Below, one piece after another: positions 17,937 to 60,537 of a stretch of 64,000 nucleotides of DNA. The DNA lies in NCBI RefSeq assembly GCF_001280565.1, contig NZ_LGRO01000001.1, forward strand, positions 186,001 to 250,000, read 5' to 3'. Numbering within the stretch: the stretch's first letter is position 1; every line of letters starts with the position of its first letter. The position numbers and the translations under genes are program-made. The DNA comes from Sulfobacillus thermosulfidooxidans. GTDB lineage: Bacteria > Bacillota > Sulfobacillia > Sulfobacillales > Sulfobacillaceae. The notes beneath the pieces are model-generated. The model worked only from the letters and a program-made list of their open reading frames with translations. It searched no databases and had not been told where the DNA came from.

Positions 17937-17962
17937 CGGGAAGCCCCCCGGACACGAAAGAG

Positions 17963-39203: not shown

Positions 39204-40617
39204 GAGAATGCCCCATTTTTCGTGGAAATTGAAACTAGCGATCCTGATGGCTCTCTGGTTGAATAGAGAGTGCTTAACCCATTTTGAGGAGGAATCGCTA
39301 GTGACTACCAGTATAAAGAAAAAACCGCTGCCCGAACAGCCTGTGACGGTGCCGTGGGTGGACATTCTCCAGGATGCGGAAGACGGCTTATTGGCGCTCT
39401 CGATCCGGGTCGGATTACAGGTGTTGCAACAGATGATGGCGGCGGAGGTGGAGCAGTTGGCCGGTCCCAAAGGACGTCATGATCCGCAACGCCAAGCGGT
39501 CCGACATGGGACTGATGTCGGCAGCGTCTTTGTGGGGGATCGCAAAATCTCCGTCCCGCACCCGCGGGTGCGGGCGGCTGATGGTTCGGAGGAAATTCCG
39601 TTAGACACCTATCATCAGTTTCAGGACCCTACGCTCGCGACCCAAGCGGTGCTCGAACGGATGCTGTATGGCTTAGCGAGTCGTCAACAAAGCCATGCCG
39701 ATGCAGCCTTTGAGGCCGCGGTCCCGCAGTCTGGCCCGAGCAAAAGCACCGTCAGTCGCCGTTTTATCCAGGCCACGCAGCAAGCCCTGGACCGCTTCTT
39801 GCAACGCCGATTGGACGATCGGACCTGGGTTGTGGTGATGATCGATGGGTTGCGCGTCGCCGACCATCTGGTGGTTGGCGCCTTAGGCATTGATGCCGAC
39901 GGTCACAAACGCGTGTTGGGATGAGTCGAAGGGGCTACAGAAAACCACACGGTGGTGACAGCATTATTACAGGATCTCATCACCCGCGGCCTGACGGCCG
40001 CGCACGGTTTACTCGTGGTCATCGATGGCGCCAAGGCCTTAGCCAAAGCGGTGCGCGAGGTCTGGGGGGATCAAGTCCTCATTCAACGCTGCCAAATCCA
40101 CAAGCAACGGAATGTGCTCGACCACCTGCCGAAATCGGCGGAAAATCGCGTCCGCCAGCGCTTACGGAAAGCCTATCAAGAACCGGATGCGGATCAAGCC
40201 GCGCAGGCATTGGAAGCGCTCGCGAAAGAGCTCGAAAAGGATCATCCCGGCGCCGCCGGGAGCCTCCGGGAAGGGCTCGCCGAGACCTTAACCGTGCATC
40301 GTTTGGGTCTCCCGGGCCTCTTGCGCCAAACGTTGGCGAACACCAATGCCATGGAATCCATCAACAGTCAATTGCGGACCCATGCGCAAAATGTCAAACA
40401 TTGGACCAATGGGCAACAAGTCCTCCGGTGGATGGCGTCGGCAAGTTTTTTCATTGAAGAGACCTTGACGCGGATCCCCGGCTATCGCGAGATCCCCTTG
40501 TTGCAAACGGCCTTAAAAGCCGCGTGTCCAAAAACACCGGAACAAAAAACCGAGCAAATCGGTTAAATCACGCGAAAGGATGCGCTAGCGAAATTCCACG
40601 AAGCGTGGGACAACCTC
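39204..40617 (+). mobile_element. IS256-family element, copy C (1414 bp), complete ends
   Basis: It starts GAGAATGCCCC and ends GGGACAACCTC, the same terminal inverted repeats as copy B in opposite orientation, flanked by CATTGAGA duplications. The transposase gene carries a nonsense codon. Many silent differences from copy B show that the two are not a very recent pair. Confidence 0.93.
39301..40566 (+). pseudogene. IS256 transposase with an in-frame TGA
   Basis: A GTG start at 39301 after GAGGAATC parallels copy B. The frame is collinear with the intact 421-residue protein, but TGA at 39922-39924 replaces the Leu codon in HKRVLGLVEGAT. Beyond it the frame stays open to 40566 with QRCQIHKQRN and NTNAMESIN conserved. 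The C-terminal end differs slightly from copy B (EQKTEQIG). Confidence 0.9.
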
Positions 40618-41630: not shown

Positions 41631-41955
41631 GCCGTAGTCTTGTAGGGAACCACTGCCGCACTTTTCCGTGTTCGGGGCACCTTTTCCAGGAATTTTTTGT
41701 GTGCCGCGCGATCATGCATGGCGGCTCAGTGTTACGATGGAAAACGAAGTTCTTACTCATACTGTTCATGGCGACAGTTAAAAAATTCCCAAATTTAGAG
41801 TGTTTTTGGAAAACAGGCAGGAATATTCAAGGGGTGTCGAATTCGCTTTTAGTTAATCAAGTAAATTAAAGGAGGCAATGCGATGGGTAAGGCACGAGTC
41901 ATAGGAACATTCGCATTGGCGATGATGTTATCGACATGTGGCACTCCTCCGACGT
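41631..41955 (+). repeat. Promoter/leader direct repeat, copy 1 (with 43032-43357)
   Basis: About 325 bases recur 1401 bases downstream with ~90% identity by eye. The repeat covers the last codon of a gene (CCGTAG), an intergenic region with the conserved TTAAAAAATTCCCAAATTTAG stretch, the AAAGGAGG site, and the first ~25 codons encoding the lipoprotein signal MGKARVIGT. It gives two adjacent genes the same promoter and signal peptide. Confidence 0.92.
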
Positions 41956-43037
41956 CTTCAAGCGTAATAAAAACAACCGAAAGGACATATGCGCAAAAAC
42001 AAATAATAGCACCGATGAGGTCTCGGGCTATTGAGGGCACGCTTAGATCCTATTCGCTCCCGAATAATTTACAAGGCATACAGACCGATGCCCCAGCACG
42101 AGCACTGCCCGATCGATTAATCAGACATTTCAAGCCCATGCCAGCTATGCGACTGGCAGAAGTTTCCCGAGGGAAAGGCGCGTTCGTATTTTATAGTTTT
42201 GCGCCAACTTCCCCGATTTATTGGGCTAAAATGTCCCCGCAAGTGATAGTAAACAGGGCACAAACGGCTGGATTGAAGTACCTTGAAATTCGACTGGGGT
42301 ATTCAAATTGGTTGCAAATTGCGCAAGGTTCCCAACAAGAATGGTTTAATCATTTGCTGAACTCAGCCCATCGCCACGGGATTCGCGTTATCGGGTGGAT
42401 AATCCCGTATGTCAACAACCAGTCAGCACAGACGATCCAAACATCACTAGCGGGGGACTGGCAGGTCGCTTATTACCTGGTGCACTACAAGACTTCGAAA
42501 GGAGGACAATTATCTGGGTTAGCCATGGATTTAGAGTTAGGTCCGTTATACTTCGATGGAAACACGACGGCGTTAGGAGAGTATGTAAAGGGAGTGCGCG
42601 CCATGGTTGGTCCTGGCTATCCTCTCATCGCTATTGTACCCGACCCTGCTCGTACCGGACCAACCTCTGTGATTGGCCAGAGCCATTATTATCCTTACAA
42701 TGTCGTGGCTCATTTTTCAAACGTACTCCAACCGATGGCGTATTGGCACGAGTACTATGTTCATGATGATTTTGATTACACTAACTCATATGTGCGTAAC
42801 TTTATTTCACAAGCAATTCTGACAACTCGACAACAAGCGCGTGTTAGCTCCATCGCCATAAACTTAGCGTTACAATTTTACGGCAACTCAACCGTGGGCT
42901 ATCCATCGGTTCAGGAAGAAAATAATGCTCTAGTAAGTGCCAATACGGATGGCGCAATCGGTGTTGCCGCGTTCCAATGGCATACGCTAACTGCTGCATA
43001 TTGGGATGTTTTGTCGCAGTTCCGTTGGAAGCCGTAG
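41883..43037 (+). CDS. Lipoprotein with a TIM-barrel glycosidase-like domain
   Basis: The ATG follows AAAGGAGG at 7 bases. The signal peptide ends in lipobox LSTCG. The 384-residue protein then has alternating strand/helix segments of a (beta/alpha)8 type: VNRAQTAGLKYLEIRLGY, HGIRVIGWIIPYVNN, LSGLAMDLELGPLYF (acidic residues at a strand end), VLQPMAYWHEYY and AIGVAAFQWHTL. This resembles GH18/GH25-like barrels, but I cannot name the family. It lies just upstream of the sugar ABC operon and shares its leader, so it may release the imported sugars outside the membrane. Confidence 0.6.
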   Translation: MGKARVIGTFALAMMLSTCGTPPTSSSVIKTTERTYAQKQIIAPMRSRAIEGTLRSYSLPNNLQGIQTDAPARALPDRLIRHFKPMPAMRLAEVSRGKGAFVFYSFAPTSPIYWAKMSPQVIVNRAQTAGLKYLEIRLGYSNWLQIAQGSQQEWFNHLLNSAHRHGIRVIGWIIPYVNNQSAQTIQTSLAGDWQVAYYLVHYKTSKGGQLSGLAMDLELGPLYFDGNTTALGEYVKGVRAMVGPGYPLIAIVPDPARTGPTSVIGQSHYYPYNVVAHFSNVLQPMAYWHEYYVHDDFDYTNSYVRNFISQAILTTRQQARVSSIAINLALQFYGNSTVGYPSVQEENNALVSANTDGAIGVAAFQWHTLTAAYWDVLSQFRWKP

Positions 43038-43357
43038 TCCTGTAGGGGACCACTCCCGCACTTTTCCGTGCTCGGGACGCCTTTCCAGGGATTTTTGTGT
43101 GCCGCGCACGATCATGCATGGCGGCTCAGTGTTACGATGGAAAACGAAGTTCTTACTCATACTGTTCATGGCGACAGTTAAAAAATTCCCAAATTTAGAG
43201 TGTTTTTGGAAAACAGGCAGGAATTTGTTCAAGCGGTGGCGAATTCGCTTTTAGTTAATCAATTAAATTAAAGGAGGCAATGCGATGGGTAAGGCACGGG
43301 TCATAGGAACATGCGCATTGGCGGGAATGTTAGCGGCATGTGGCACTTCTCCGCCCT
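43032..43357 (+). repeat. Promoter/leader direct repeat, copy 2
   Basis: Second copy of the 41631-41955 repeat. It starts in the final codons of the barrel lipoprotein and ends after the signal-peptide codons of the ABC binding protein. Confidence 0.92.
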
Positions 43358-44613
43358 CGTCAACCGCCACGGGCACCTTTCACGGTACGATTACACTGTG
43401 GGCGTTTCCGGGCACACCAACGCCGCACCATCCCAATGGCTTCGGATGGTATAAAGCGATGATTGCTGCATTTGAAAAAATGCACCCCGGTGTGAAAATT
43501 CAACTGACTGAAATCCCGTGGTCCGAAGGAACTGTGAAATTGGAAACTGCGGTCGCTGCCGGGGACTACCCGGATGTTGCCCCAGGTGGCGGGACATTGC
43601 CCCAGTTTATTCAAGATGGGGTGATTGAACCCATTAACCCTTATTTAGGACATTATGCGAGTCAACTGTATCCTCGCGTCGTCAAGGCCGCCACATTTCA
43701 TGGCAAGATGTATTATTGGCCATCGGTGCAAACAGCAACGGTGTTGTACTTAAACAAAACCTACTTTGCCGAACGGCATGTGCCATTACCGCGTAACGGA
43801 ATGTGGACATGGAATGAGTTTGTTCACGATTTGCAACGGTTGACCTTCGTGCAAAAAAATGGCCAAAAAGTGTACGGATTCGGTGTCAATTTACAGCCGG
43901 GTAATTCGTTGTCATACGGCATTCTCTTATCGGATGGTGCCCACCTATTGAATTCATCGTTAACGCAATACACGTTTGACGGGCCTCAAGCCGTAAGTGG
44001 AGTCGAAAAATTGACGTCGCTGGTTCAAAAATATCATGTAGCCCCGAAATCCATTGCGTCGGATTCCGCCAAAACTGTGTGGGAGAATTTTTTGCAGGGT
44101 AAATACGCTGTCACAGCCTATTATGCAGACTTTTTAAACAAGAAGAGCATTGCGGCGAAATCAGCGCAGATTCCCTTTCCGTATGCGGTGGCCAATTATC
44201 CCATTGGTGCACTAGGACATCCTATTACCATTGGCGATATTGCTGGATACACCGTGTATAAACAGAGCAACCCGAGTCAGTTGCGGATGTCGATGTTATT
44301 TGCTAAATTTCTCTCCGACCCCGCAGAGTGGCCGGCCGCGATTCAACGGAAATACATGAGTATCGGGGGCGGGGCTTACCCGGTAGGCCCCCAGGATGCC
44401 GCGATACAAGCCCAATATTTTCGCAACGCGGACTATGACGAAGTGCTTCATAACAACTTGCGCTTTTTCCAGTTAAATCCACCATTAACCCCTGCATGGC
44501 CTAAACTGCAAAAGGCCTTGGATGCTCAACTGCAGTTGATCGTTCTCGGACAGGAATCTCCCCAACAAGGGCTCAGCCAAGTTAAACGGCAAATGGCAGG
44601 GATCATTAAATGA
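43285..44613 (+). CDS. ABC sugar transporter, substrate-binding lipoprotein
   Basis: 442 residues: signal peptide with lipobox LAACG, then a family-1 solute-binding protein (GTITLWAFPGTPTPHH, MIAAFEKMHPGVKIQLTEIPW, AAGDYPDVAPGGGTLPQFI). These features match MalE/UgpB-like carbohydrate binders. Two permease genes follow at once. No ATPase gene lies in the operon, so a shared MsiK-like ATPase is likely. The ligand is probably a cell-wall disaccharide, judging from the downstream hydrolases. Confidence 0.92.
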   Translation: MGKARVIGTCALAGMLAACGTSPPSSTATGTFHGTITLWAFPGTPTPHHPNGFGWYKAMIAAFEKMHPGVKIQLTEIPWSEGTVKLETAVAAGDYPDVAPGGGTLPQFIQDGVIEPINPYLGHYASQLYPRVVKAATFHGKMYYWPSVQTATVLYLNKTYFAERHVPLPRNGMWTWNEFVHDLQRLTFVQKNGQKVYGFGVNLQPGNSLSYGILLSDGAHLLNSSLTQYTFDGPQAVSGVEKLTSLVQKYHVAPKSIASDSAKTVWENFLQGKYAVTAYYADFLNKKSIAAKSAQIPFPYAVANYPIGALGHPITIGDIAGYTVYKQSNPSQLRMSMLFAKFLSDPAEWPAAIQRKYMSIGGGAYPVGPQDAAIQAQYFRNADYDEVLHNNLRFFQLNPPLTPAWPKLQKALDAQLQLIVLGQESPQQGLSQVKRQMAGIIK

Positions 44614-45470
44614 ACACCGCGCGGTTTTGGTATCAGCTACTGCTTCCGAAAATGACGTTATTTGGTCTCTTCATTGTGCTGCCCACCATGTTGGCCCTCT
44701 TTATTGCGATGAGTCATGTGACACCCGGTCATTTGACATGGGTAGGCCTAAAAAATTTTTCGGACGTTGTGCGTGATCGCACCTTTTGGACATCGGTGCG
44801 GAACACCCTGATTTATACGGTAGTGACGACGCCAGTGGTTATCGGCACCGCGTTCATCCTATCCAACTTGCTGATGACCTTGCCTGACTTCTGGCGATCG
44901 GTGTTCCGGGCCGTGTTTTATCTTCCGTCCGTTACTGCGGTTGTCGTGATGGCGCTGGTCTGGGCGTGGATTTACGATGATTCCAGTGGGTTACTGAACG
45001 GCCTTCTTCGCGCAGTGCATCTTCACGGTATTGGATGGCTCGTAAATCCACACTTGGCATTATGGAGCATCATGTTGATGACGATTTTGACGCCTCCCGG
45101 GATGGGGATCGTGTTGTACATGTCTCAGTTAGGATCAATTCCTGCAGGCTATTATGAAGCCGCTGAACTTGATGGAGCCGGTACATGGGCTAAGTTTCGC
45201 TATATTACCTGGCCCATGGTGATGCCCACCACGCTATACCTCGCCGTCATGCATACCATTGCAGCGTTTCAAATTTTCACCGCCATCTACGTAATGACGG
45301 GCGGTGGCCCTGGCAACGCGACGTTGACGATTGTCGGAGAAATTTATGACAAGGGATTTCAGTATTTCGAACTGGGCCACGCGGGCGCGGAGGCAATATT
45401 ACTGGGCCTGGTGATTGCGATATTTAGCTATGTGCAATTTAAGGTGTTGGGACGCCATGTTGAATACTAG
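44610..45470 (+). CDS. ABC sugar transporter permease (MalF type)
   Basis: 286 residues with six helices. The start overlaps the binding-protein stop (ATGA). The EAA loop that contacts the ATPase is clear: YYEAAELDGAGTWAKFRYITWPMVMP. The hydrophobic N-terminus LLPKMTLFGLFIVLPTMLALF and the ending QFKVLGRHVEY are typical. Confidence 0.93.
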   Translation: MNTARFWYQLLLPKMTLFGLFIVLPTMLALFIAMSHVTPGHLTWVGLKNFSDVVRDRTFWTSVRNTLIYTVVTTPVVIGTAFILSNLLMTLPDFWRSVFRAVFYLPSVTAVVVMALVWAWIYDDSSGLLNGLLRAVHLHGIGWLVNPHLALWSIMLMTILTPPGMGIVLYMSQLGSIPAGYYEAAELDGAGTWAKFRYITWPMVMPTTLYLAVMHTIAAFQIFTAIYVMTGGGPGNATLTIVGEIYDKGFQYFELGHAGAEAILLGLVIAIFSYVQFKVLGRHVEY

Positions 45471-46353
45471 ACCACAGAGACAACCCCGGCCAGAAAATCG
45501 GCTTCCTGTGCGGACCCTGCCACCTTCAAGACGGCCGCGAATTACGGTCCGGGCTGTCGTGTTCGGAATTGTGAGTGTTTGGGCCCTCTTAGGATTGTTT
45601 CCCTTATATTGGTTGTTCGATACCGCTTTGTCTTCCCCGCAGGCGTTTGTGAGCATTCCGCCCCGGATAGTGCCATTTCCATGGACGTGGCAGAATTTTG
45701 TGTATCTTTTTCACTCCGCGCCTATTTGGCGCTGGTTTGGCAATAGCTTATTCGTGTCAACAGTGGTGACCCTAGGCAATTTGGTCTTCGATGCGATGGC
45801 AGCCTATGCGTTTTCCAAAGGCCGCTTCCGTGGGCGTGATACCCTATTTTGGGTGGTGTTGAGCACCATGATGATTCCCGCCGAAGCCACCTTGGTTCCC
45901 CAATTTTTTGTGATGAGTCGACTGCACCTGTTGAATACGTACTGGGCCCTCATTTTACCGGCTCTGGGTCGGGTGTGGGGCGTGTTTCTCTTGCGGCAAT
46001 ACATGCAGACGCTGTCCACTGAGTTTTTTGATGCGGCCCGAGTGGATGGAGCTGGCGAGTGGACGGTGTTTTGGAAACTCGTTGTCCCCTTAAGCACGCC
46101 GGCCTTAGGCGCATTGGGTCTCCTCACATTTGTGGCCAATTGGAATGATTTTATCTGGCCTCTGATTGCTTTGAATTCCACGCAACTGTTTACTTTGCCG
46201 GTTGGATTATCCACCTTACAGCAACAATATTACACCAACTATGGCTATGTTTTAGCCGGTGGGGTCATTACAGCCATTCCGACGATCCTGATCTTTTTAT
46301 TGGGACAACGGTTCTTCGTGCGGGGATTAACCACCGGCGGCATTAAAAATTGA
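45457..46353 (+). CDS. ABC sugar transporter permease (MalG type)
   Basis: I take the ATG at 45457 (MLNTRPQRQ), overlapping the previous stop by 14 bases. About 298 residues. The EAA loop is FFDAARVDGAGEWTVFWKLVVP, and the GLFPLYWLFDTALSSPQAF start and the Gly-rich end RGLTTGGIKN match MalG-like subunits. It forms the channel with the preceding permease. Confidence 0.93.
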   Translation: MLNTRPQRQPRPENRLPVRTLPPSRRPRITVRAVVFGIVSVWALLGLFPLYWLFDTALSSPQAFVSIPPRIVPFPWTWQNFVYLFHSAPIWRWFGNSLFVSTVVTLGNLVFDAMAAYAFSKGRFRGRDTLFWVVLSTMMIPAEATLVPQFFVMSRLHLLNTYWALILPALGRVWGVFLLRQYMQTLSTEFFDAARVDGAGEWTVFWKLVVPLSTPALGALGLLTFVANWNDFIWPLIALNSTQLFTLPVGLSTLQQQYYTNYGYVLAGGVITAIPTILIFLLGQRFFVRGLTTGGIKN

Positions 46354-46381
46354 TGGCGGCATCAATAGGAGGGGTTTTATC

Positions 46382-47500
46382 GTGGATATGGCCGTAGGAA
46401 CATCCTTTTATATTGGAATTCCATCCAGTACCAAAAAATCTGCATACGATTGTGTCGCCCTCGCCTTGGACATGGGGATTCAACATTTTTTCACCACCGT
46501 CCAAATGCCCGAAGCATCCATTGCCGACCACTTAGAGGAATTCCGAGCCGTGGCTCAATTCGCACGTGGAAAGAACGTCCGCATCATGGCTGATGTCCAT
46601 CCCATTGCTTTTCAACGGGTGGGAGGCAATGTAGCGAATTTAACGCCCCTGCAAGAACTGGGCATTACCGATTTACGGCTGGACGCCGGATTCTCTGAAG
46701 AAGAGACGCTAACGCTCTATCATACGGCGAGCCGCTTAGGAATGCGGATTGTCCTCAATGCTAGTGCGGTCACCGCCGCGTCTTTACAACGGTTTCACGA
46801 TTTAGGGTTGCCCCTTCAGGACATGGTCGCTTGCCATAATTATTACCCTCGTATCGAATCCGGTATGTCGACCGTGTTTATGGCCCAACAAGCCACTTTA
46901 TTGCATCGCTTTGGAATCACGGTGGTCGCCTTCGTCGCGAGTCAATCTCATCATCGCTATGTGACGTATGAAGGGTTGCCCACACTTGAAGTGCATCGGT
47001 TTCTCGAGCCGCATCGAGCGGCACGGGAATTGTTAAGCCGAGGTTGGGCCGACCACGTATACATTGGAGATCAAACAGAAAATGCAGAGGAGTTAAGCCG
47101 ACTGGCAGAGGTTCGACAAAGCCCTCATCTTATCTTGCGATTGCAACTTAGCCATCAGGCACGAGACCCTGAACGCAAGATTGTCCTTGGACGCGTGCAT
47201 GAACATCTGCCCCAATTGTTTGAACTCACCTGCCGGGCGCGCGGAGACCGCCAACGGCCGACGTTAGAAACAATTACTCCTGCCCCGGAGCTTCTTCCCC
47301 GTCCCCGTGGCACTGTCGCCGTCGACAATGTCTTATACCCGCGTTACGCCGGAGAGCTGCATATTGCCAAAGTCGATTTGCCCGCCGATCCCCGAACTAA
47401 TGTGGTCGGTCGCGTGATACCAGACGATCAGCGACTCATCGATGCCATTGGCCCCCGAACACGATTTGCCTTTGAGGCCGTGGGAGGGTTCCAAGAATGA
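46382..47500 (+). CDS. mupG: MupG-family 6-phospho-N-acetylmuramidase (DUF871)
   Basis: GTG start at 46382 after AGGAGG. The 372-residue protein begins VGTSFYIGIP and has MGIQHFFTTVQMPE, ADVHPIAFQRVG, LRLDAGFSEEE, NYYPRIESGMS and the C-terminal small domain GTVAVDNVLYPRYAGELHIAK, all typical of DUF871/MupG proteins. The characterised S. aureus enzyme splits MurNAc-6P-GlcNAc after PTS uptake. Here an ABC system imports the sugar, so phosphorylation would have to be intracellular, or the specificity differs. It is followed by NagZ with a 4-base overlap. Confidence 0.85.
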   Translation: MDMAVGTSFYIGIPSSTKKSAYDCVALALDMGIQHFFTTVQMPEASIADHLEEFRAVAQFARGKNVRIMADVHPIAFQRVGGNVANLTPLQELGITDLRLDAGFSEEETLTLYHTASRLGMRIVLNASAVTAASLQRFHDLGLPLQDMVACHNYYPRIESGMSTVFMAQQATLLHRFGITVVAFVASQSHHRYVTYEGLPTLEVHRFLEPHRAARELLSRGWADHVYIGDQTENAEELSRLAEVRQSPHLILRLQLSHQARDPERKIVLGRVHEHLPQLFELTCRARGDRQRPTLETITPAPELLPRPRGTVAVDNVLYPRYAGELHIAKVDLPADPRTNVVGRVIPDDQRLIDAIGPRTRFAFEAVGGFQE

Positions 47501-48927
47501 CAGCGTGGACAACAAAGCGCTCCGCGCAAGAATTGGCTGCCCAATTTCTCCTGCCCAATTGGGACAAGGGCGTGCACTGGGATCCCCAACAATGGCCTTA
47601 TGCAGGATATATTTTTCATCACCGTGACCTCGAAAATGTCGCCGCGACCCGGTCGATGCTGGCAGCCATTTATGACAGCTATCGTCGCGCGAATCAACCC
47701 CCGCCGTTACTGATGGTGACGGAAGAAGGTGGAGTGGTTCATCGGTTCCCTGGCATAGCGCCTCCGCCGTCGCCCCTGTCGACGGGCCAGCTTGGGGCGC
47801 GTACAGCCTATGATGTGGGACACCTTATTGGGCAGTTGTTGGCTATGCAAGGATTTAATTGGAACTTAGCTCCTGTCATGGACCTCTACGTGTCGGGCAA
47901 TCAGGTCATTGGTTCCCGAGCATTTAGCGACGACGCACACCAGGTGGCCATGATCGGGAAAGCGTGGATGATGGGGCATCAAGCCGCCGGTGTCCCCGTG
48001 ACGATTAAACATTTTCCGGGGCATGGTCATGCATTAGAGGATTCGCATCGGGGGCTTTCCCAAGGCACGATAGAGATGGTGTGGGAACAGGATTTATTGC
48101 CCTTTCAAGAGGTATTATCAGAGGCGCCCGCAGTCATGACGGCGCATGTTCAGTTTTCGGAATTCGATTACCATCCTGCAACGGTATCTAGCAAATGGAT
48201 AACCGGAGTCTTGCGGCAACGGTTCCGTTACCGCGGCATCGTGATCACTGATGCCTTAGCCATGGGGGCCATTCGCACATTCTCTACGCCGGAAGATGCC
48301 GCGGTTCGGGCTCTCCAAGCGGGAGCGGATCTCATTGATTGTGGCGGGCATGCTGATTTAGCGACCAGCGTGTGTGATGCCGTTGCGTGGGCCATTGAGC
48401 ATCATCGTCTGCCTCGTCACATTCTCACAACGGCCCAGCGCCGCGTTCGACGGTGGCGGCAACTGATTCGTAGTCCGGATTGCTGGCCTGCCGTTGACGG
48501 GGTGGCCGAGATAGAAAAGCAGTTTCAGCAGTGGGTGTTTCGCGGCAGTTCGGTGGTCCGCGGAAATCCTCGAGATTTTTCGATCGCGTTACCCCAAATT
48601 TGGATTGCAGCCAAACGTCCAACTCAGATTAGGGAAGGACGGCTCGCACATAAGCCGGTGCTCTATCACCCCATGAACACGCCACGGTTGGGGAAAACGT
48701 TAGATCAGATTGCATCCCATGCAGCAATTGTCTATACAGACAACCTTTGGCAGTCCAAGAAAGCCGTTGCGATCGTAAAACGATTTTGCCAACACCGGAA
48801 CGTGCTCCATGTCGCCGTGACGGATCCTTGGGATGCGGAGCTGTTGTCAGAAGCCTCAACCACGGTCGTAGTGCGAGGTAATCCCTTCTATGCCGTCGAT
48901 GTGGTGCACTCGCTGTTAAGAACTTAG
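47497..48927 (+). CDS. nagZ: Beta-N-acetylglucosaminidase, GH3 (NagZ type)
   Basis: 476 residues, cytoplasmic (no signal peptide). The GH3 core shows MVTEEGGVVHRFPG, MQGFNWNLAPVMDLY, the NagZ-specific catalytic loop KHFPGHGHALEDSHRG (with the Asp-Ser-His acid/base dyad), and VITDALAMGAI with the nucleophile Asp. A C-terminal domain of ~130 residues follows. It removes GlcNAc from GlcNAc-anhMurNAc or GlcNAc-MurNAc fragments. Its place between MupG and the MurQ fusion supports muropeptide salvage. Confidence 0.92.
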   Translation: MTAWTTKRSAQELAAQFLLPNWDKGVHWDPQQWPYAGYIFHHRDLENVAATRSMLAAIYDSYRRANQPPPLLMVTEEGGVVHRFPGIAPPPSPLSTGQLGARTAYDVGHLIGQLLAMQGFNWNLAPVMDLYVSGNQVIGSRAFSDDAHQVAMIGKAWMMGHQAAGVPVTIKHFPGHGHALEDSHRGLSQGTIEMVWEQDLLPFQEVLSEAPAVMTAHVQFSEFDYHPATVSSKWITGVLRQRFRYRGIVITDALAMGAIRTFSTPEDAAVRALQAGADLIDCGGHADLATSVCDAVAWAIEHHRLPRHILTTAQRRVRRWRQLIRSPDCWPAVDGVAEIEKQFQQWVFRGSSVVRGNPRDFSIALPQIWIAAKRPTQIREGRLAHKPVLYHPMNTPRLGKTLDQIASHAAIVYTDNLWQSKKAVAIVKRFCQHRNVLHVAVTDPWDAELLSEASTTVVVRGNPFYAVDVVHSLLRT

Positions 48928-48982
48928 CGATGCAATAACGATCGGAGCCTGAATGGTAATCACAACACGAGGAGGGGCGAGA

Positions 48983-50776
48983 ATGTCACGAGTGATAGTC
49001 ATGGGAGTCGATGCGATGGTATTGCCGCTCGTCAAACGGTTCGCCGGAGAGGGGGTGTTACCGAACTTCTTAACCGTTCTCCGACATGGGGCTGTTAGTG
49101 AGGCGTTGTCGGTCGTACCGCCTTACACCCCCACAAACTGGGCTACGATAGCCACGGGAGCCTTACCGGGCCGTCACGGTGCCGGAAACTGGACCGACGT
49201 CACGATGCAAGATCCCCTCGATCGTGTGCCGCGTTCGACATTTGATGCCCGTGCTCTCAATGCCGAACCCATATGGGTGACGGCCAGTCAACACGGATTA
49301 CAGAGTTTAGTCATTACCTATCCCGGATCGTATCCCCGACGCGTCCCCGGGACCATGGTGGTGGCTCCGCTCTATCGCGGCCTAACGGGTCATGTGCTTG
49401 CGCGCGGGGCCTCCTACCGTCTTTGTGTGCCGAACGCACAGCCGGTAGAGTTGTCAGTGACCAGTCAAATTACGGGACCCGTCATTGTGCCCACCGAAGA
49501 TGGTCATCGAGAGATGACACACGACGACCAGCATGCCCCGATTCACTTTACGGTCGCCCGCGATGGTACGCATCTTGTTATTCGCGGCACGGTGAAACCT
49601 CTGGTGTTGGCGTGTGGACAATGGAGTTCCTGGGGCGAGGTGCAATATGCCAACGGTCAGCGTGGCTCGGTTCGGTTTAAATGGGTGCGCCAAGATGGCT
49701 CCCACGTTACATTAATTCGATCAGAAATTTACCCGACCACACATTTTACCGATCCCCCACAATTAGCGGAAAGGATCTACGACATTGCGGGGCCTTTTAT
49801 TGAACACCCCGCCGTCGTGGCCCGGGACGACGACGATAGCATGCAAGCGGTATTGGAGGAGATTGCGGACCAGATTAAGTGGTATGCGACCGTCATTGAA
49901 GATACGGCCACGTCGCATCCCTGGCAGTTGTGCATGTTTCATTGGCATTGGATTGACACGGCGCAACACACGTTTCTGGCCGCATTGGATCCGGAAGAGG
50001 GACAAGAACCGGATCCACGCGCTGAAGAGTTTATCCGCCGCTCCTACCAGTTAGCCGATGAACTCCTGGGCCGATTACTGACCCTGATGACACCGGAGGA
50101 TCATCTGATCATCGTCTCCGATCATGGCCATGTGCCCAATCGCCGCATTGCGAGCATTGCGCGCCGCCTGGTGGAAGTGGGCTTAGCGGTTTTTGATACG
50201 CGGCAATCCCCGCGCGAAGTGATTGATCGCACGCGGTCGGCGGTGTACGTGCTCTCGCCGCATGAGTTAGCCATTAACGTGCAGGGACGCAATGCGGGCG
50301 GGATTGTCGCGCCCGCTGACTATGAAAGCGTCCTGCAGCAAGCCCTGGATGCGTTGTGCGATTGGAAGGATGCAGAGACCGGACAACGCCCCGTGGCGTA
50401 TGCATTCCCGGCCCCTCACCAAGCCCTGTTGGGGTATTTCGGTGATCGCATCGGCGATATCTTATTTCTGTATAATCCGGGCTATGCGTGGGGCATTCCT
50501 CAAGGGGACAAGACCATTGGCCCGGGTGATGGCACCGCCAATCATGGGGCTCAGTTGCCTACGACCCGCACGACCCGAACGAGCAATTTGGCCACCGTCA
50601 TGGCTCTCGGACCCACGATTCGGTCTGGCTATGCCCGCGATGTGGCTCGGGACGGATACGTGTCCTTGACGGACATCGCCCCGCTTGTGGCCTATCTGCT
50701 GGGCATTCCCCAACCGCGGCAGTGTCGGGGCACTGTCCCGTGGGATTTTCTGCACGAGCCCCCCATAAAACGTTGA
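48983..50776 (+). CDS. Alkaline-phosphatase-superfamily phosphodiesterase/pyrophosphatase
   Basis: The ATG at 48983 follows GAGGAGGGGCGAG; the frame's earlier start is not used. About 597 residues. Metal and nucleophile sites are VIVMGVDAM (Asp), PYTPTNWATIATGALPGRHG (Thr nucleophile), HWIDTAQHTF (Asp-x3-His), IVSDHGHV and NHGAQLP. This is the type-I phosphodiesterase/nucleotide-pyrophosphatase group. No signal peptide is evident. Its role in the amino-sugar operon is not obvious; it may clear phosphorylated or UDP-linked sugars. Confidence 0.85.
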   Translation: MSRVIVMGVDAMVLPLVKRFAGEGVLPNFLTVLRHGAVSEALSVVPPYTPTNWATIATGALPGRHGAGNWTDVTMQDPLDRVPRSTFDARALNAEPIWVTASQHGLQSLVITYPGSYPRRVPGTMVVAPLYRGLTGHVLARGASYRLCVPNAQPVELSVTSQITGPVIVPTEDGHREMTHDDQHAPIHFTVARDGTHLVIRGTVKPLVLACGQWSSWGEVQYANGQRGSVRFKWVRQDGSHVTLIRSEIYPTTHFTDPPQLAERIYDIAGPFIEHPAVVARDDDDSMQAVLEEIADQIKWYATVIEDTATSHPWQLCMFHWHWIDTAQHTFLAALDPEEGQEPDPRAEEFIRRSYQLADELLGRLLTLMTPEDHLIIVSDHGHVPNRRIASIARRLVEVGLAVFDTRQSPREVIDRTRSAVYVLSPHELAINVQGRNAGGIVAPADYESVLQQALDALCDWKDAETGQRPVAYAFPAPHQALLGYFGDRIGDILFLYNPGYAWGIPQGDKTIGPGDGTANHGAQLPTTRTTRTSNLATVMALGPTIRSGYARDVARDGYVSLTDIAPLVAYLLGIPQPRQCRGTVPWDFLHEPPIKR

Positions 50777-50800
50777 ACACGGAAAGGACGTGACACCCTA

Positions 50801-51757
50801 ATGGAGTTAATGCAAGCCTCCTGGTTACATCGTGGCGAGGAATTTCTCGTCCGCGAAAGTCCGCACGATGCGGAGGGATATTGGGCCGGTGCCCCTGCGG
50901 CCTATTATGATGACGATGATGACGTGCTGTATCTCTACTATCGGCTCCGACGCCCCCGCGGACAGGGGCGCGGGTATGAAGCCCGTATCGCCCAAAGTCG
51001 CGACGGCGTGCATTTTCAGGATGTGTGGGTCGTGACCCAGCAACAACTCGCGTCCCCCTCCATTGAACGCGGCTGTCTCGTGAAACAGCCTGAGGGGTGG
51101 GTGCTGTACTTAAGCTATGTCCATCCGGACACGCATCAGTGGCAAATTGATCGGATTGATGGCGATCGTCCGGAGACGTTGAACATCGCAACGCGGACGG
51201 TCGAATTAACCCCTTCGGGAATCAACGGTCATGCCGTGAAAGATCCCGTGATTGTCCGCCAAGGACCCGTCAGTTTCATGTATGTCAGTTACGCGCCGGC
51301 GTCGCTGACTCGGGAACTTCGGCCCGACGACCACTTACATGCCAGCGATGACGTCTTTACGACGGGCTTGGTCAAGTCGCACACCGGCCTGGCCATTGGC
51401 CTGGCCAACCACCCGCATCGGTGGGTCGGCGAAGTGCTGAGTGCGTCGGTGACGGGGTGGGATTCCTTGGTGTCGCGCATTACGGGATTGATGCCGTTGG
51501 ACACGGTCTATTTGGCGTTTTATGATGGATCCGCCAGCGTCACAGAAAATTATGAAGAGCGCGTCGGGGTCGCCCTGACTGCCGATCTGAAACACTTTTA
51601 CAAAGTGCCGGGGAAGGAACCCTGGATGTGTTCGTCCTACGGCTCGTTGCGATACGTCGCCCCGGTAAAGACCCCAGATGGCTGGATTCTCTATTATGAA
51701 GCGCGCACCGCATCCGGGTCCCACGTGTTATGTGGACGAAAGGTCGGGCATTGGTAA
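50801..51757 (+). CDS. Beta-propeller glycosidase-like protein (GH43/GH130-like fold)
   Basis: 318 residues without a signal. Repeated blade-like segments pair an Asp-rich strand with an aromatic one: YWAGAPAAYYDDDDDVLYLYYRLRR, RIAQSRDGVHFQD, ERGCLVKQPEGWVLYLSY, VKDPVIVRQGPVSFMYVSY and RYVAPVKTPDGWILYYEAR. This is the pattern of five-bladed GH32/43/62/130 propellers. The catalytic residues cannot be fixed by eye. Cytoplasmic action on an imported sugar, perhaps as a phosphorylase, is likely. It sits one base before the MurQ fusion start. Confidence 0.6.
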   Translation: MELMQASWLHRGEEFLVRESPHDAEGYWAGAPAAYYDDDDDVLYLYYRLRRPRGQGRGYEARIAQSRDGVHFQDVWVVTQQQLASPSIERGCLVKQPEGWVLYLSYVHPDTHQWQIDRIDGDRPETLNIATRTVELTPSGINGHAVKDPVIVRQGPVSFMYVSYAPASLTRELRPDDHLHASDDVFTTGLVKSHTGLAIGLANHPHRWVGEVLSASVTGWDSLVSRITGLMPLDTVYLAFYDGSASVTENYEERVGVALTADLKHFYKVPGKEPWMCSSYGSLRYVAPVKTPDGWILYYEARTASGSHVLCGRKVGHW

Positions 51758-51758
51758 T

Positions 51759-53702
51759 ATGCTATGGACTGGATGGGTATTAACGGGAACCCTGGCCGAT
51801 CACAACGCGGTCGACCTCATGACGGACGGACCGATTCTTCGGGTGATCACCGACTTTGCGCAGTTAACGCCTACCGACGTGCAGAAGCTGCAAGGTTTAT
51901 GCCGACGCGAATCCTGTTGGATTATGGAGGACGCGTTACGGTGCTATAACCACGGCGATCTCGCCTGGCCGACCCCCCAACTCATCGGCGCGGCGGGGGA
52001 TCTGCCGGGACTGACAACCATCGCGCAGTGGTTTGGTACGACGCTGGCGACTGTCGGAATACAGGGCGTGTTTGGCCGTCCCGCCGGCATTCTCAGTGAC
52101 ATCGCCTTGCCATGGCTCGGCTCCCACATTCGGATCGCGGCCCAGCAGGGATTTGCGCAGGCGGGCATCCAGACAGCCTGGGCGGTGGCGCCGGAAACGG
52201 GACCGGACCTGGAATGGTGGCTCGACGGGGCCGGTCGTATCGTGCCCTGGCGTACCGCGGCGCTCAACGCCCCGCCGCAATGGTATTGGGTCGCGGTTAA
52301 GGACTTTCCTCACATTCGATCATCGCACGCGAACCCGCCGCCCCATGGTGGTCCCGCGCGAGCCACTATTGAAAAGCGGTTAAATCGCATGCGCACCGCC
52401 AGCATTCAGTTAATCGACGATCCGGCTCGTTTACCCTTTCCGGCGGACACGCGGTTTGTCGTGGTGGCGCCGCAGCGCCGCCTGCAACAGCGCGTCGCCG
52501 AACTCCTGAACGGCAAAGGGCGGGACCACCATGGACCGACCGTTTATGTCTGGATGGACCGACTCCCGGAGGCGTCTCAGCCCGAGGCGGATGTAGTTGT
52601 TGTGTACGCCCACCCAGCGATCGTCGGGCTAGCGCCTCCGCACGCGGTTAAAATTCAGGTGTTTGATACGCATGATACCGTATGGACGGCCCTGAGGCAG
52701 AAATTAATCGGTCAGGAGTTGTGGGAAGGACGCACCCCCTGGCGCTTGGATCAGCCTCACCGGGCGACCCATGCCGCTCATTATAGCACCGAACAACCGC
52801 ATCCCGGGACGACCTTTCGCTGGTTAGACAGCCAATCGAGTCCCGACGTGATGCGGCAGTGGATTCACGAAGAACAGCAGGCTGTCGGCCGCATCGCCGC
52901 CGCGATTCCGGTCTTAGACCGCGTTCTGACACGGCTGGTCGACACGTATCGCCAGGGAGGACGAATTTTTTATGTGGGCGCGGGATCGGCGGGACGGCTC
53001 GCCGTCCTGGATGCGGCGGAACTGCCGCCAACCTTTGGGGTGACTTCGGGGCGCGTCCAAGCCCTCTTGGCCGGGGGGATCGCAGCCTTTCAACAGGCTC
53101 ACGAAGACGCCGAAGATGGCGGCGAAGCCGGGTGTCGGGCGATTCGAGCCCGGGGCATTACGTCGCGTGATGTCGTCTTGGGCGTGACTGCGCACGGCGA
53201 CACGCCTTACGTGGTGGGGGCCCTCCAAGAAGCCCAAAGGCGGGGGGGCTTTACCGTGGCGTTAGTCAATAACCTCGGCACACGGGTGGCTACGGTGGCC
53301 AATGAAGTGATTTTTGTGGACACCGGTCCTGAAATTCTTTTAGGATCCACGCGGTTGAAAGCCGGCACCGTGGAAAAAATTGTGTTAAATATGTTATCCA
53401 CGCTGACGATGGTCAAAACGGGCCATGCGTATGATAATTTGATGGTGAATTTTCAGACGCATAATGAGAAATTACGCGAACGGGCCGTGCGGGTTCTGAT
53501 GATGGCCACCGGACAACCGCGGCAAATCGCATGGAAAACGCTCCAAGCGGCCCAGGGCCGTCTGCCGGTGGCCATCATTATGTTACGCTGTGGGCTGTCG
53601 TGTCGACAGGCCCAGCAGGCCTTGGAGCGGTATGGCAGCGTAGGGCAAACCATCACTACCATGGAAGAGAGCGGGGAAGCTCGATTATGGGACGCGGATT
53701 GA
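51759..53702 (+). CDS. Fusion: degenerate NagZ-like (GH3) domain + MurNAc-6-phosphate etherase (MurQ)
   Basis: The ATG at 51759 lies just past the preceding stop; the frame upstream is a shadow. About 647 residues. Residues 1-~350 follow the order of GH3 NagZ enzymes (LTPTDVQKLQGL, CWIMEDALRC, WFGTTLATVGIQGVFG, then a C-terminal Rossmann-like part), but the KHFPGHG/DSH catalytic loop is missing. Residues ~360-647 are MurQ: GGRIFYVGAGSAGRLAVLDA, AELPPTFG and HEDAEDGGEAG with the two catalytic Glu, GSTRLKAGTVEK and NLMVNFQTHNEKL. One conserved loop is altered: TAHGDTPYV instead of ASGRTPYV. MurQ removes D-lactate from MurNAc-6P to give GlcNAc-6P. Confidence 0.85.
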   Translation: MLWTGWVLTGTLADHNAVDLMTDGPILRVITDFAQLTPTDVQKLQGLCRRESCWIMEDALRCYNHGDLAWPTPQLIGAAGDLPGLTTIAQWFGTTLATVGIQGVFGRPAGILSDIALPWLGSHIRIAAQQGFAQAGIQTAWAVAPETGPDLEWWLDGAGRIVPWRTAALNAPPQWYWVAVKDFPHIRSSHANPPPHGGPARATIEKRLNRMRTASIQLIDDPARLPFPADTRFVVVAPQRRLQQRVAELLNGKGRDHHGPTVYVWMDRLPEASQPEADVVVVYAHPAIVGLAPPHAVKIQVFDTHDTVWTALRQKLIGQELWEGRTPWRLDQPHRATHAAHYSTEQPHPGTTFRWLDSQSSPDVMRQWIHEEQQAVGRIAAAIPVLDRVLTRLVDTYRQGGRIFYVGAGSAGRLAVLDAAELPPTFGVTSGRVQALLAGGIAAFQQAHEDAEDGGEAGCRAIRARGITSRDVVLGVTAHGDTPYVVGALQEAQRRGGFTVALVNNLGTRVATVANEVIFVDTGPEILLGSTRLKAGTVEKIVLNMLSTLTMVKTGHAYDNLMVNFQTHNEKLRERAVRVLMMATGQPRQIAWKTLQAAQGRLPVAIIMLRCGLSCRQAQQALERYGSVGQTITTMEESGEARLWDAD

Positions 53703-54886
53703 ATATTTCAGGGGTTCACCAACAAAATCGACGGCTTATCTTGCGATTAATCTTACAGAATCCCCACATTTCCCGGATTCAATTGGCGGAACGGACGCAT
53801 CTCACGCCGGCCTCGGTTTCGAACATTACCCGGGCCCTCATTAACGAACAGTACATTCAAGAAGTGGGGACCCTGGATGAAATTCGATCTAGTGGTCGAC
53901 GGGCCATTGGATTGCGGATTCGCAATGGCCACTACCGCACGGTCGCCGTCCATATGCAACGCCGCACCATCACGATAGGCCTCGGCGAATTGGATGGCGC
54001 GGTGACGCCGATGCAATCGTTGACCATTCCCGATCAGCCGCATCCCGAGCACTTGGCGAAGCAGGTGGGGCGCGAAATCATCCACCTGGTGCGCACCCTA
54101 ACCGCCAGTCACATCGTGGGCGTTGGTGTCGGAACGTCGGGGATAGTGGATACCGAAACGGGCATGGTCAATGCGGCATTGGCGTATCAATGGCAAAACG
54201 TTCCGTGGGCCGCCTTGTTAAGTCAAGAAACCGGGTTGCCCGTCGCGATGGATAACAACGCCCGCGGAATGGCCCTGGGGGAAATGCTCTTTGGGGGACC
54301 GGATGCGTCGGCCTGGTTAGTGTTTTTCTATGTGGGCCAGGGGATCGGCGTCGGCGCGATTACCCATGGTCAGGTGTTTCGTGGCCCCAAGGGCATTGGC
54401 GGCGAATTGGGCCACATGACCATCAATTGGCAGGGCGAGAGGTGTTGGTGTGGCAACGTGGGATGCGTGGAAACCTATTTAAATCAGGCCCACATCGAAG
54501 CCTTGCTAAATGTGACGGAGGGAGAAAGCCTCGTGACGGCCTTGCAGCGGTGGGATCAACGGGGGCCCTATTTTGATCTCGTGGATTGGATCACCACCGC
54601 TATGGTGGCCATTGTCAATCTGTTTAACCCGCGCCAGATTGTCCTGGGCGGCTGGCTAGCAGATGTCTGGCCGCAGATGGAGCACGACGTGAGGCATCAC
54701 CTGAAGCGACGCACGCGGTTTTGGAATGATCCCGGGCCCCAAATCCGCCCGGCGGCGAAGGGCCTCGACGTGGGACTTCGCGGGGCCAATGCGGTCGCCT
54801 TAAGTCAATGGGTTTATGACATTGAAGGCATCCGCGGCCCCGGGAGACGGAGCGACAGCTTCGCGCCTCCTGAGGAGACCGTATAA
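53687..54886 (+). CDS. ROK-family transcriptional repressor (NagC/XylR type)
   Basis: I take the ATG at 53687, overlapping the MurQ end by 16 bases. About 399 residues. The N-terminal winged helix is ILQNPHISRIQLAERTHLTPASVSNITRAL. The ROK sugar-binding domain follows with GVGVGTSGIVDTETG, MDNNARGMALGE, GQGIGVGAI, GGELGHMTI and the complete zinc loop CWCGNVGCVETY. It probably represses the operon until an amino-sugar phosphate binds. Its stop overlaps the GNAT start. Confidence 0.92.
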   Translation: MGRGLNISGVHQQNRRLILRLILQNPHISRIQLAERTHLTPASVSNITRALINEQYIQEVGTLDEIRSSGRRAIGLRIRNGHYRTVAVHMQRRTITIGLGELDGAVTPMQSLTIPDQPHPEHLAKQVGREIIHLVRTLTASHIVGVGVGTSGIVDTETGMVNAALAYQWQNVPWAALLSQETGLPVAMDNNARGMALGEMLFGGPDASAWLVFFYVGQGIGVGAITHGQVFRGPKGIGGELGHMTINWQGERCWCGNVGCVETYLNQAHIEALLNVTEGESLVTALQRWDQRGPYFDLVDWITTAMVAIVNLFNPRQIVLGGWLADVWPQMEHDVRHHLKRRTRFWNDPGPQIRPAAKGLDVGLRGANAVALSQWVYDIEGIRGPGRRSDSFAPPEETV

Positions 54887-55839
54887 TGCGAGTGGAGCAG
54901 GCCGACCCTCGGGATTACGACGCGATAGTACGGTTGTGGGCGTCCGCGTTGCCTGTCGATGCGATCGGCCGCGCACGGTTTTATGGGGGACTCCTCTGCG
55001 ACCCCGCCTTCCGCAACGATTCCCTCTGGGTGGTGAAAACGCGCGGGCGTCACGTGGTGGGATTCGCCCTGATCTCGGCGCCCACATCCTCGGGACGGAA
55101 ACTGGGAGCCATCGCCGTCGATGCCGCTTATCGCGGTCAGGGAATCGGGATGCGCCTCTGGGCGGCGATCTGTGCAACCTTGGACGCGGGCGAATCGTTA
55201 CGATTGGAGGGCATTTTCCCGCATGTATTTATTCCCGGAGTGGATCGCACGCAGTATGCCGCTGCGTGGTCATGGTTCTTACGGCGGGGATGCCAACCGC
55301 AACTGCCGGTCGTGGCAATGGAGCGGCGCTTGGATGATTTACCGAGGGACCACATCATCGTACCGCAGAAGGTGGCGACCACCGTTGAGGTTGGGGTGCT
55401 CCCCCGTTGGCTTCGTTATCGCGCATTGGAAACCGCACGGTCCTTTGGCCCCGGATGGGAACGGGCCGTGCGGGAAACGTGGCAGTGTGCCGTGAGCCCG
55501 GAACGGGTGCTAGGACTTTATACGGCCACCGAGGTGTTAGGCATCAGCGTAGTGGGGGGCTACGGCGAACCGCTGGGGCGCTTAGGGCCGATTGGCGTGG
55601 TGCCTGCCGTGCGCGGGCAAGGATGGGGTCGAGCGTTGCTCTACTATACGCTCCGCTATATGCGAGCTCATGCGGTGTCCCGAGCCTATTTTTTGCATTG
55701 CGTGGAAGGGAGCCCGGCCTATCATCTCTATCGTCATCAGGGATTTCACGTTATCCGGAGATTTGTGCCGATGATAAAATATGTCCCTAATGACCGAAAA
55801 TCCGGTGATGCCAGCCCCGGACTTCAGCCCAGGGGATAA
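54886..55839 (+). CDS. Tandem GNAT acetyltransferase, intact
   Basis: 317 residues; TAATG overlap with the ROK gene. There are two GNAT folds, each with motif A: IAVDAAYRGQGIGMRLW (residues ~72-88) and IGVVPAVRGQGWGRALL (~236-252). In the first domain a GIFPHVFIPGVD stretch follows. Such double GNATs act on small molecules. As last gene of an amino-sugar operon it could acetylate glucosamine or a peptide-linked sugar. The 3' two-thirds is duplicated as the pseudogene at 11058. Confidence 0.85.
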   Translation: MRVEQADPRDYDAIVRLWASALPVDAIGRARFYGGLLCDPAFRNDSLWVVKTRGRHVVGFALISAPTSSGRKLGAIAVDAAYRGQGIGMRLWAAICATLDAGESLRLEGIFPHVFIPGVDRTQYAAAWSWFLRRGCQPQLPVVAMERRLDDLPRDHIIVPQKVATTVEVGVLPRWLRYRALETARSFGPGWERAVRETWQCAVSPERVLGLYTATEVLGISVVGGYGEPLGRLGPIGVVPAVRGQGWGRALLYYTLRYMRAHAVSRAYFLHCVEGSPAYHLYRHQGFHVIRRFVPMIKYVPNDRKSGDASPGLQPRG

Positions 55840-57027
55840 GATTCTTTTTTGTTGGGAGGATATCTGTCGGACGTGCCACCGCATCATGGAGGATGGCTAT
55901 TAAGTCCCCAACGCTTCTAGACATCGGTCAAGACCTGCGAACCCGTGATGAGTCATCTTCTCATACGAGACGATCCCGTAGCACTGCGGACCGAAAGTCC
56001 AACGGGAGACCTGCACACGACACAACTCCAACTCCCTATCCGTTCATGCATCGCGATTGACAAGAATCATGGAATTTCAACACTGTTGTGGAAACCATCG
56101 ATCAAACCCTGCTAAGATCCGGACAAATCGGTCTTGACGCATCCGAGGTTGACCCTGGTGGTCATTAAATGCGATTCTCCGGGTATTCAGCGAATTCTGT
56201 GGGAATATTCCGTGTTTTCCGTATCGTATACAAGGAACTGGACTCCGTAAGAGGGGATCGCTAATCGTCGAACCCCTGGCGGATTAATACCAGACAGGCC
56301 GCCAAGGGATGGGCAGACCCTAGTGGCTAGTTCTTCCACAACACCGGGTGCGCCCGCAACATATTGAGCTGGTTCACCACCGGGACTTGGATAACTGCCA
56401 GAAGTACTTGCCTGTTCGTACAGACGGAGAATGTTGGCTGTTATTTCGTGCGGGTGGATTGTGGGGGGATGATAATAGGCGATAACCATCGTAAAAAGAT
56501 TCTGTGTCGCATGCGGATACGTGTGCAACCGCAGGCGCCAGCCAATCTTTTGTAGAACGACGGCCCCCTGTCGCCAATTCGTGACGCGTTATGCAATGAG
56601 GACCGTCTGATTTGAATGGGCATAATCTTTTGTGATGATGAGTCATGGGAAACTAGTTCACCTATCGGCAACCCTCATAGCTACTTCTTTGGCCACGATT
56701 CGCTCAGGATGCGAAACCTGAGAGAAAACCGGTTAAAATACATGGCCAGACCTCACAATGAGATGTCATGATGCGCTATGGGTCGCCACCAGCCCGCTTT
56801 ACCGAGACTTCTCCCAGAAGGCTTTGAGTGCAGGTCACGCCTCCGTGCCTCATGATGAGGACTCACCTTGGGGTTTTTTGATGGCTGCCGGCGGCATAGC
56901 CGAAGGGTTTTGCATGATTCCCATCATGGCCATGATTGCGGTGACTATAGCAGCGAACTATCGGAAAAAGTTTACTCGCTACGACTTTTAAACGCTGGAA
57001 ATATACCATGGTTATGCTTTATTCGAC
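55840..57027. other. Non-coding region shared with copy 1
   Basis: There is no convincing gene in ~1.2 kb. It aligns in patches with 13235-14734. Conserved elements are the TTAAGTCCCCAACGCTTCTAGACAT motif at about 55899, GGACCGAAAGTCC near 55988, and a short MIPIMAMIAVTI frame near 56916. The same frames are broken differently in the two copies, as expected for decaying sequence. Confidence 0.5.
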
Positions 57028-57194
57028 TATACTAGACATAAAAGAGGACATCATCCAGGACGGCGAGTAAACAAGAGGCATTTGTTGTCTCCGACATAGC
57101 ACTCGCCAACACATCTCCTCATTCCTGCATCTCTTTGCAAGCAAGAGTGACTCTATCATCTAATTTATGCGATCCCAGAAGGAGATCGGTTGTG

Positions 57195-59408: not shown

Positions 59409-59633
59409 CGAGAGCCCGTTGTGGTGGCGTCCGAGGAGGAACTGACTCTCCTCCGCATCTCTGTGCAGACGTATTGGATCGGCAGTGGTGAACTCGACCT
59501 GTTATAAAGTCGACCCCACAAGCCTGTTGGACTACTATCGTCGGGACGTTCAGCTCTACTCATCATGGGGATAGCGGTAGCGTCTCGTCCGGGGCGAAAC
59601 CCATTACACGCTAGTCAAGGTAGGTGTTTTACG

Positions 59634-60227: not shown

Positions 60228-60252
60228 CGGGAAGCCCCCGAACAAGAAAGAG

Positions 60253-60537
60253 GTGGATTTTGTGGGAGGGCGAAGAATTGGTGTTGTGGGGGCTGCAATG
60301 GCCTCGGACGCGCGCCCCAAGTCAATGCGAACCCTTAGGTTTTCGTATCGTCCAAACACCTGTGGTCTGGATATCGGATTGTGGCGTGTCGATTTCGATG
60401 CCCGCTTACGGTATCAGTGGAACTGGTTACAGGGTTACCGCATCCCGCGCCGAATCACACACCACGGGAGGCGTTTGGTTGGGCTGTCCGAGAGATCAAA
60501 CGGCATGAACGAAACAATTGGCCAGGGTGACGCGTGA
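60253..60537 (+). CDS. Possible small ORF between DoxX and sigma genes, copy 2
   Basis: Counterpart of 17963-18247, starting at a GTG after AAAGAGG. A second overlapping frame (to 60508) is open here but has a TAG in copy 1. No family. Confidence 0.3.
   Translation: MDFVGGRRIGVVGAAMASDARPKSMRTLRFSYRPNTCGLDIGLWRVDFDARLRYQWNWLQGYRIPRRITHHGRRLVGLSERSNGMNETIGQGDA

Follow-up and report, generated by a model that had tools for sequence, protein, structure and literature searches.

The stretch of the Sulfobacillus thermosulfidooxidans genome analyzed here (contig NZ_LGRO01000001.1, positions 186,001 to 250,000; all 64,000 nucleotides are referred to as "the window") carries an operon of ten genes, all on the + strand and either overlapping or lying no more than about 55 bp apart (43285-55839), in which an ATP-binding cassette (ABC) sugar importer stands together with a MupG-family glycosidase and a MurQ-type etherase that both depart from their relatives at otherwise invariant positions. 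This operon very probably serves muropeptide sugars through ABC uptake in some form. As to the chemistry, the residues involved suggest, in what we regard as an evenly balanced case, that N-acetylmuramic acid-N-acetylglucosamine (MurNAc-GlcNAc) would be imported unphosphorylated, split by MupG and its MurNAc converted directly by MurQ, while the phosphate-independent pathway as such (a free-MurNAc etherase plus a MupG acting on unphosphorylated MurNAc-GlcNAc delivered by an ABC importer) is put forward tentatively, with somewhat less than even confidence.

Taken singly, MurQ, MupG and ABC sugar importers are familiar; what appears new is their joining with a co-altered MurQ and MupG, and neither a phosphate-free MurNAc etherase nor this operon was found described in the open-access literature searched, in agreement with a first-pass annotation of the window that had taken the combination to be undescribed. 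As far as that literature shows, MurNAc breakdown through MurQ runs via MurNAc-6-phosphate (MurNAc-6P), which ties MurNAc uptake and recycling to the phosphotransferase system (PTS), AnmK or MurK. A phosphate-independent MurQ and MupG, if true, would uncouple muramic-acid use from all three, would lead to GlcNAc rather than GlcNAc-6P, and would serve as a warning that a substrate cannot be read off a MurQ or MupG annotation. A mycobacterial lactyl etherase giving a GlcNAc product other than GlcNAc-6P has been postulated in a preprint (Stravoravdis et al. 2026; PMC13041923), and nothing in the present data links the variants described here to mycobacteria.

An ABC importer beside altered MurQ and MupG

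The genes listed by the first-pass annotation were all recovered in one direction, overlapping or closely spaced (by Pfam/NCBIfam matches and, for the propeller protein, by an AlphaFold model), but its description of the operon as "complete" does not hold, because the ATPase (sought by a family search of the operon proteins), the kinase and NagA are all missing from it. The importer is encoded by a lipoprotein solute-binding protein (SBP) gene (43285-44613; SBP_bac_1 E = 3.5e-28, lipobox LAACG) and two PF00528 (BPD_transp_1) permease genes, one UgpA-like (44610-45470; UgpA model 8.3e-29) and one UgpE-like (45457-46353, the start being corrected from a listed open reading frame (ORF) start of 45415; UgpE model 1.4e-46). 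PF02378 (PTS_EIIC) had no match genome-wide, which bears out the absence of a PTS as far as a MurP-type permease is concerned and rules out such a permease being encoded elsewhere, and a PTS enzyme I-like gene is encoded in the genome.

The MurQ domain forms the last 320 residues (52737-53702) of a 650-aa fusion protein, and its similarity to etherases is full-length (PRK05441 E = 2.6e-94; 315 bits against a cut-off of 168), yet it scores below the TIGR00274 equivalog cut-off (269.7 against 302 bits), with the host's other MurQ reaching 361. It was compared in an alignment of 113 domains, namely 100 canonical ones, 12 variants and the one from locus L085, using Haemophilus influenzae numbering. 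Position 82 is Ser in 100/100 canonical domains (by construction, since the canonical group was sorted on that residue) and Ala in all 12 variants; position 150, which played no part in sorting the canonical group, is likewise Ser in 100/100 and His in 12/12. The L085 protein, the sole one outside both groups, carries the first change only. Within the operon, these replacements fall in the first SIS sugar-phosphate loop, GAGSAGR (52977-52997; canonical GAGTSGR), and in the second, AHGDTP (53190-53207; canonical ASGRTP), and are accompanied among the variants by Thr81 to Ser, Gln210 to Glu and, mostly, Arg152 to Asp or Asn; the GSTR motif is kept, as are the catalytic Glu residues of LDASE and EGAED and the larger part of the site. 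The variants and L085 are set apart from all other MurQ sequences (Shimodaira-Hasegawa-like approximate likelihood ratio test, SH-aLRT, 99).

The 12 variants, all of them fusions, come from 11 genomes in three families of the host's class; in eight of the 11 genomes a further, separate MurQ scores above the family cut-off, which argues for the variant being a paralogue with a job of its own, and the host's canonical MurQ can serve MurNAc-6P derived from AnmK, itself encoded elsewhere in the host genome. Across 398 genomes spread over the phylum, the host's own match was alone in scoring like a variant, and wherever another match was retrieved with its locus (29 of them) the motifs were canonical. 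Every MurQ in a locus with a MurP-type permease is canonical (58/58), and the variant motif was seen only in loci devoid of that permease.

What the two loops do in relatives has been reported: according to a 2025 paper, Streptomyces NagS holds the 6-phosphate of GlcNAc-6P by Ser54, Ser119 and Ser121, MurQ likewise using three serines (PMC12680351), and the sugar-phosphate site of GKRP, another MurQ relative, includes Thr109, Ser110 and Ser179 (PMC4109836). The changed MurQ residues are taken, by alignment, to fall in the two equivalent loops.

MupG (46382-47500) is above the cut-off in both domains (MupG_N 183 bits, 7.9e-54; MupG_C 71 bits, 9.4e-20), and no MurP-type PTS is linked to it. When nine MupG of the host's family, from ABC-family loci, were set against 60 linked to a MurP-type PTS, ten otherwise conserved positions proved changed, with the operon's protein showing H41Q, S73H, G193Y, N275H, R276L and D278Q. 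Arg276 and Asp278 are present in 60/60 PTS-linked proteins and are Leu and Gln in 9/9 of the host's family (codons 276-278, Leu-Pro-Gln, 47207-47215), so that the HxNRxD motif reads HEHLPQ, and RSxxSR at residues 285-290 has become RARGxRQ. A more distant genome (G058, locus L028) has both a variant MurQ and a MupG likewise lacking Arg276 and Asp278. Residues Ser82/Ser150 of MurQ and Arg276/Asp278 of MupG offer a simple test of specificity.

It had been argued in the first-pass annotation that, with no PTS, either an intracellular kinase or an altered MupG specificity would be needed. The reasoning stands, with the balance of evidence tilting toward the second branch, extended to MurQ, because both proteins differ from their PTS-linked relatives at otherwise invariant positions; the kinase branch keeps some ground through two BadF-type NagK-like kinases and a ROK kinase encoded outside the operon. 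The chief competing account, the ordinary 6-phosphate route, on which ABC uptake would be followed by a MurK-like kinase yielding MurNAc-6P or MurNAc-6P-GlcNAc for a MupG and MurQ of the usual kind, with the residue changes only retuning affinity, is one we hold to be rather unlikely. It can draw on those very genes (one BadF-type gene, at C1:903375 of the genome, lying immediately before nagA and the other elsewhere, and the ROK kinase retaining its catalytic Asp), on MurK of Clostridium acetobutylicum phosphorylating both MurNAc and GlcNAc (Reith 2011, as cited in PMC10465942), and on the NagS Ser-to-Ala mutants discussed below. It is, however, at odds with the absence of a kinase from the operon and from the host family's MupG loci, with a canonical MurQ already being present in the same genome, and with the MurQ phosphate loops and the invariant polar positions of MupG having changed together and become fixed (12/12 and 9/9). 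The variant and MupG loci of the host's family yielded no BadF kinase; one lies about 10 kb away in L028, and in the ABC clusters of Pseudalkalibacillus it sits between the importer and a canonical MurQ.

For the phosphate-free reading, which we favor, several steps can be proposed, of which the substrate, the dispensability of the 6-phosphate, the order and the partner ATPase are what we infer. The SBP and the two permeases, working with a UgpC/MsmX-type ATPase encoded elsewhere, would take up a muropeptide sugar and leave it unphosphorylated, MurNAc-GlcNAc being the likeliest candidate; the variant MupG would split it in the cytoplasm into MurNAc and GlcNAc, NagZ would take GlcNAc off GlcNAc-ended fragments, and the variant MurQ would cleave the lactyl ether of free MurNAc to give GlcNAc and D-lactate. 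A single phosphorylation, at GlcNAc, would then be carried out by a ROK or BadF-type kinase ahead of NagA and NagB, and the ROK repressor would sense a pathway intermediate.

Several points weigh against such a phosphate-free salvage. The enzyme activities are read from the genes, the MupG positions 276 and 278 come from an alignment, and this genome may encode kinases that can produce MurNAc-6P. The S54A, S119A and S121A mutants of NagS stay active on GlcNAc-6P (PMC12680351), which makes the MurQ serine argument suggestive only; by analogy, the loss of a serine need not abolish phosphate binding. Two loci, L110 and L116, combine ABC-type permeases with a canonical MurQ and have no BadF gene nearby, and, since the variants are essentially one clade, the link to ABC importers may reflect few evolutionary events.

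Conservation and companion genes of the operon

The stretch between the SBP and ROK regulator genes, both included, is syntenic in a sister species (G109), at about 82-95% protein identity, from which it follows that the operon is conserved rather than a chance arrangement. Loci of the host's family resolve it into two modules, importer-MupG-NagZ-AlkP and propeller-MurQ fusion-ROK-GNAT, which are joined in the window and in the sister species, split over two loci in G106 (L022 and L082), and paired with Opp-type importers in other loci of the family. One relative (L039) has the same MupG type with an Opp importer, a NamZ devoid of a signal peptide and an AmpH-like gene; NamZ acts on unphosphorylated MurNAc, which agrees with the phosphate-free reading. 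A PHP-like protein (FFGDxHxHxSVSPCYWK) is kept beside both Opp-type forms of the cluster found in relatives (L082:16849-18513 and L039:17002-18666).

The glycoside hydrolase family 3 (GH3) beta-N-acetylglucosaminidase, NagZ-like (47497-48927; PF00933 (Glyco_hydro_3) 8.3e-53), has its catalytic motifs intact (KHFPGHG..DSH and ITDA), the His-Asp loop and the Asp nucleophile being invariant in the alignment, and its best PDB match is the GH3 GlcNAcase 6k5j (6e-45). The N-terminal part of the MurQ fusion (51759-52736, with the start corrected from a listed 51678) matched the same structure over both its domains when a profile of ten sequences was used (E = 4.4e-9), leaving unaligned the stretch with the KHFPGHG His-Asp loop and the nucleophile; as the match skips these, the part is read as a decayed NagZ, perhaps with a scaffolding or sensing role, and a fused kinase is ruled out as its identity. 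Since hhalign against the profile of the operon's own NagZ was weak (probability 2%), the GH3 assignment rests on the PDB profile match together with a weak PF00933 match of one member (E = 0.0017). Elsewhere in the class, two other families join MurQ to a PF00144 beta-lactamase-family domain at its C-terminal end (L092:8632-10722 and L095:9063-11192), and MurQ is also fused to NamZ (L084:8333-10603, followed by NagZ-like and AnmK-like genes) and to MupG (L029:6948-9131), and these fusions support a working link among the enzymes.

The AlkP-superfamily type I phosphodiesterase-like protein (48983-50776, corrected from a listed start of 48953; PF01663 (Phosphodiest) 4.5e-31) has no PDB relative by sequence and no evident signal peptide, so it probably acts inside the cell. 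MurNAc C6 is a known attachment point of wall polymers, and it is conceivable, if quite improbable, that the imported substrate arrives pre-modified (e.g., as a C6 MurNAc phosphodiester from a wall polymer), is processed by the AlkP-type enzyme, and has had MupG and MurQ fitted to it. That would agree with the alteration of both pockets and with the AlkP-superfamily gene being kept with MupG or variant-MurQ modules, but the probable intracellular location of the enzyme, the unlikelihood of an importer for a polymer-bearing sugar, and the lack of any wall-polymer gene seen in the operon speak against it.

The propeller protein (50801-51757) has no Pfam match, and its AlphaFold model (predicted local distance difference test score, pLDDT, 86) is a five-bladed beta-propeller resembling glycoside hydrolases and phosphorylases of the GH43, GH130 and similar kinds (Z about 25), GH117 included, with GH43, GH130 and an amino-sugar deacetylase (6n1b) scoring alike. 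Its closest homologues (at least 59% identity) adjoin a variant MurQ. A propeller of GH43/GH130 type, an SBP whose substrate cannot be read off its sequence, and the suspicion of Kluj et al. 2018 (PMC6262408) that the MupG family holds further specificities could all be accommodated by an operon handling a different, non-muramic amino sugar to which MupG and MurQ homologues had been recruited. We consider this highly improbable, given that an etherase with its two catalytic Glu stands together with MupG and NagZ, and that relatives place these three beside NamZ and AmpH-type genes, known elsewhere as muropeptide enzymes.

The ROK-family protein (53687-54886, corrected from a listed 53531; PF00480 7.3e-41) has an N-terminal NagC-like helix-turn-helix (PF13412 2.5e-9), and in place of the kinase motif NDxxxxALxE it reads DNNARGMALGE, the catalytic Asp being Asn; it is therefore taken for a regulator, a repressor by its likeness, and was ruled out as the missing kinase. 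The last gene (54886-55839) encodes a GNAT-similar protein with NCBIfam GNAT matches in both halves (residues 45-97 and 230-292). Its C-terminal part belongs to a segmental duplication (11054-19044 and 55079-61334; 95.7% identity over 4.5 kb, 98.7% over the GNAT part) that also takes in a GGDEF-type gene and two more ORFs, leaving a truncated second copy of the GNAT gene (11125-11628) beside an IS256-type transposase.

Enzymes encoded elsewhere and the upstream region

ATPases of the UgpC type are commonly shared among importers, and a UgpC/MsmX-type ATPase gene adjoins the second, canonical murQ elsewhere in the genome; NagA, the NagK-like kinases and NagB are all present in the host. Within the window, some 6 to 8 kb before the SBP gene, lie the ROK sugar kinase, a candidate GlcNAc kinase (35916-36911, + strand; PF00480 3.6e-39, intact NDVKSA motif) for which the models of ManNAc (N-acetylmannosamine), Glc (glucose) and GlcNAc kinases score below the cut-off, and a NagB glucosamine-6-phosphate deaminase (36997-37749, + strand; TIGR00502 1.8e-61, below the equivalog cut-off). 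They belong to a run of amino-sugar genes (30658-37749) with a class II aldolase, a PfkB kinase, a DeoR regulator and a GlmD/AgaS-like SIS protein on the - strand, and an amino-acid permease, the ROK kinase and NagB on the + strand. Between this run and the operon sits an IS256-type transposase whose gene is broken across two frames (39208-40566).

Directly upstream of the SBP gene, a predicted secreted protein or lipoprotein is encoded (41883-43037, + strand), a possible extracellular partner, and two relatives have homologues of it ahead of their SBP gene. A 335-bp direct repeat of 91.6% identity (41631-41961 and 43031-43363) covers the upstream region and the signal-peptide start of both genes, which may share a promoter. 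The AlphaFold model of this protein is too poor for use (pLDDT 35), and a profile built from three members of its group found no PDB relative.

Comparison with known systems

Bacillus subtilis has the cluster murQ-murR-murP-amiE-nagZ-namZ. As here, NagZ and MurQ are clustered in it, and relatives of the present operon bring in NamZ and AmpH-like genes as well; unlike here, uptake is by a PTS, NagZ is secreted, the regulator is of the RpiR type and MurQ is canonical. The mupG-murQ-murP-murR operon of Staphylococcus aureus (PMC6262408) comes close in uniting the MupG and MurQ families in a single MurNAc-GlcNAc operon, but there the PTS permease phosphorylates at entry, whereas the operon described here has an ABC importer in its place, together with NagZ, the AlkP-superfamily protein, the propeller, the ROK regulator and a MupG and MurQ with changed invariant residues.

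Systems that use muramic acid by means of MurQ and an intracellular BadF kinase are represented by MurK of C. acetobutylicum (Reith 2011, cited in PMC10465942) and by the Pseudalkalibacillus loci L133, L138 and L165, the latter sharing the ABC importer with this operon; in these systems, however, the kinase stands beside a canonical MurQ, while here the operon is kinase-free and its MurQ is a variant. Compared with canonical MurQ (PDB 1nri, 4lzj and 4s12), the operon's domain is of the same family and has the same catalytic Glu and most of the active-site motifs, but it differs by S82A, S150H, Q210E and, mostly across the variants, R152D/N, and by its fusion to a degenerate GH3. Lastly, Streptomyces NagS, a SIS-domain GlcNAc-6P dehydratase (PMC12680351), is a MurQ relative with another job, as is proposed here for the variant, although it acts on GlcNAc-6P, keeps the three phosphate-binding serines and belongs to a different clade.

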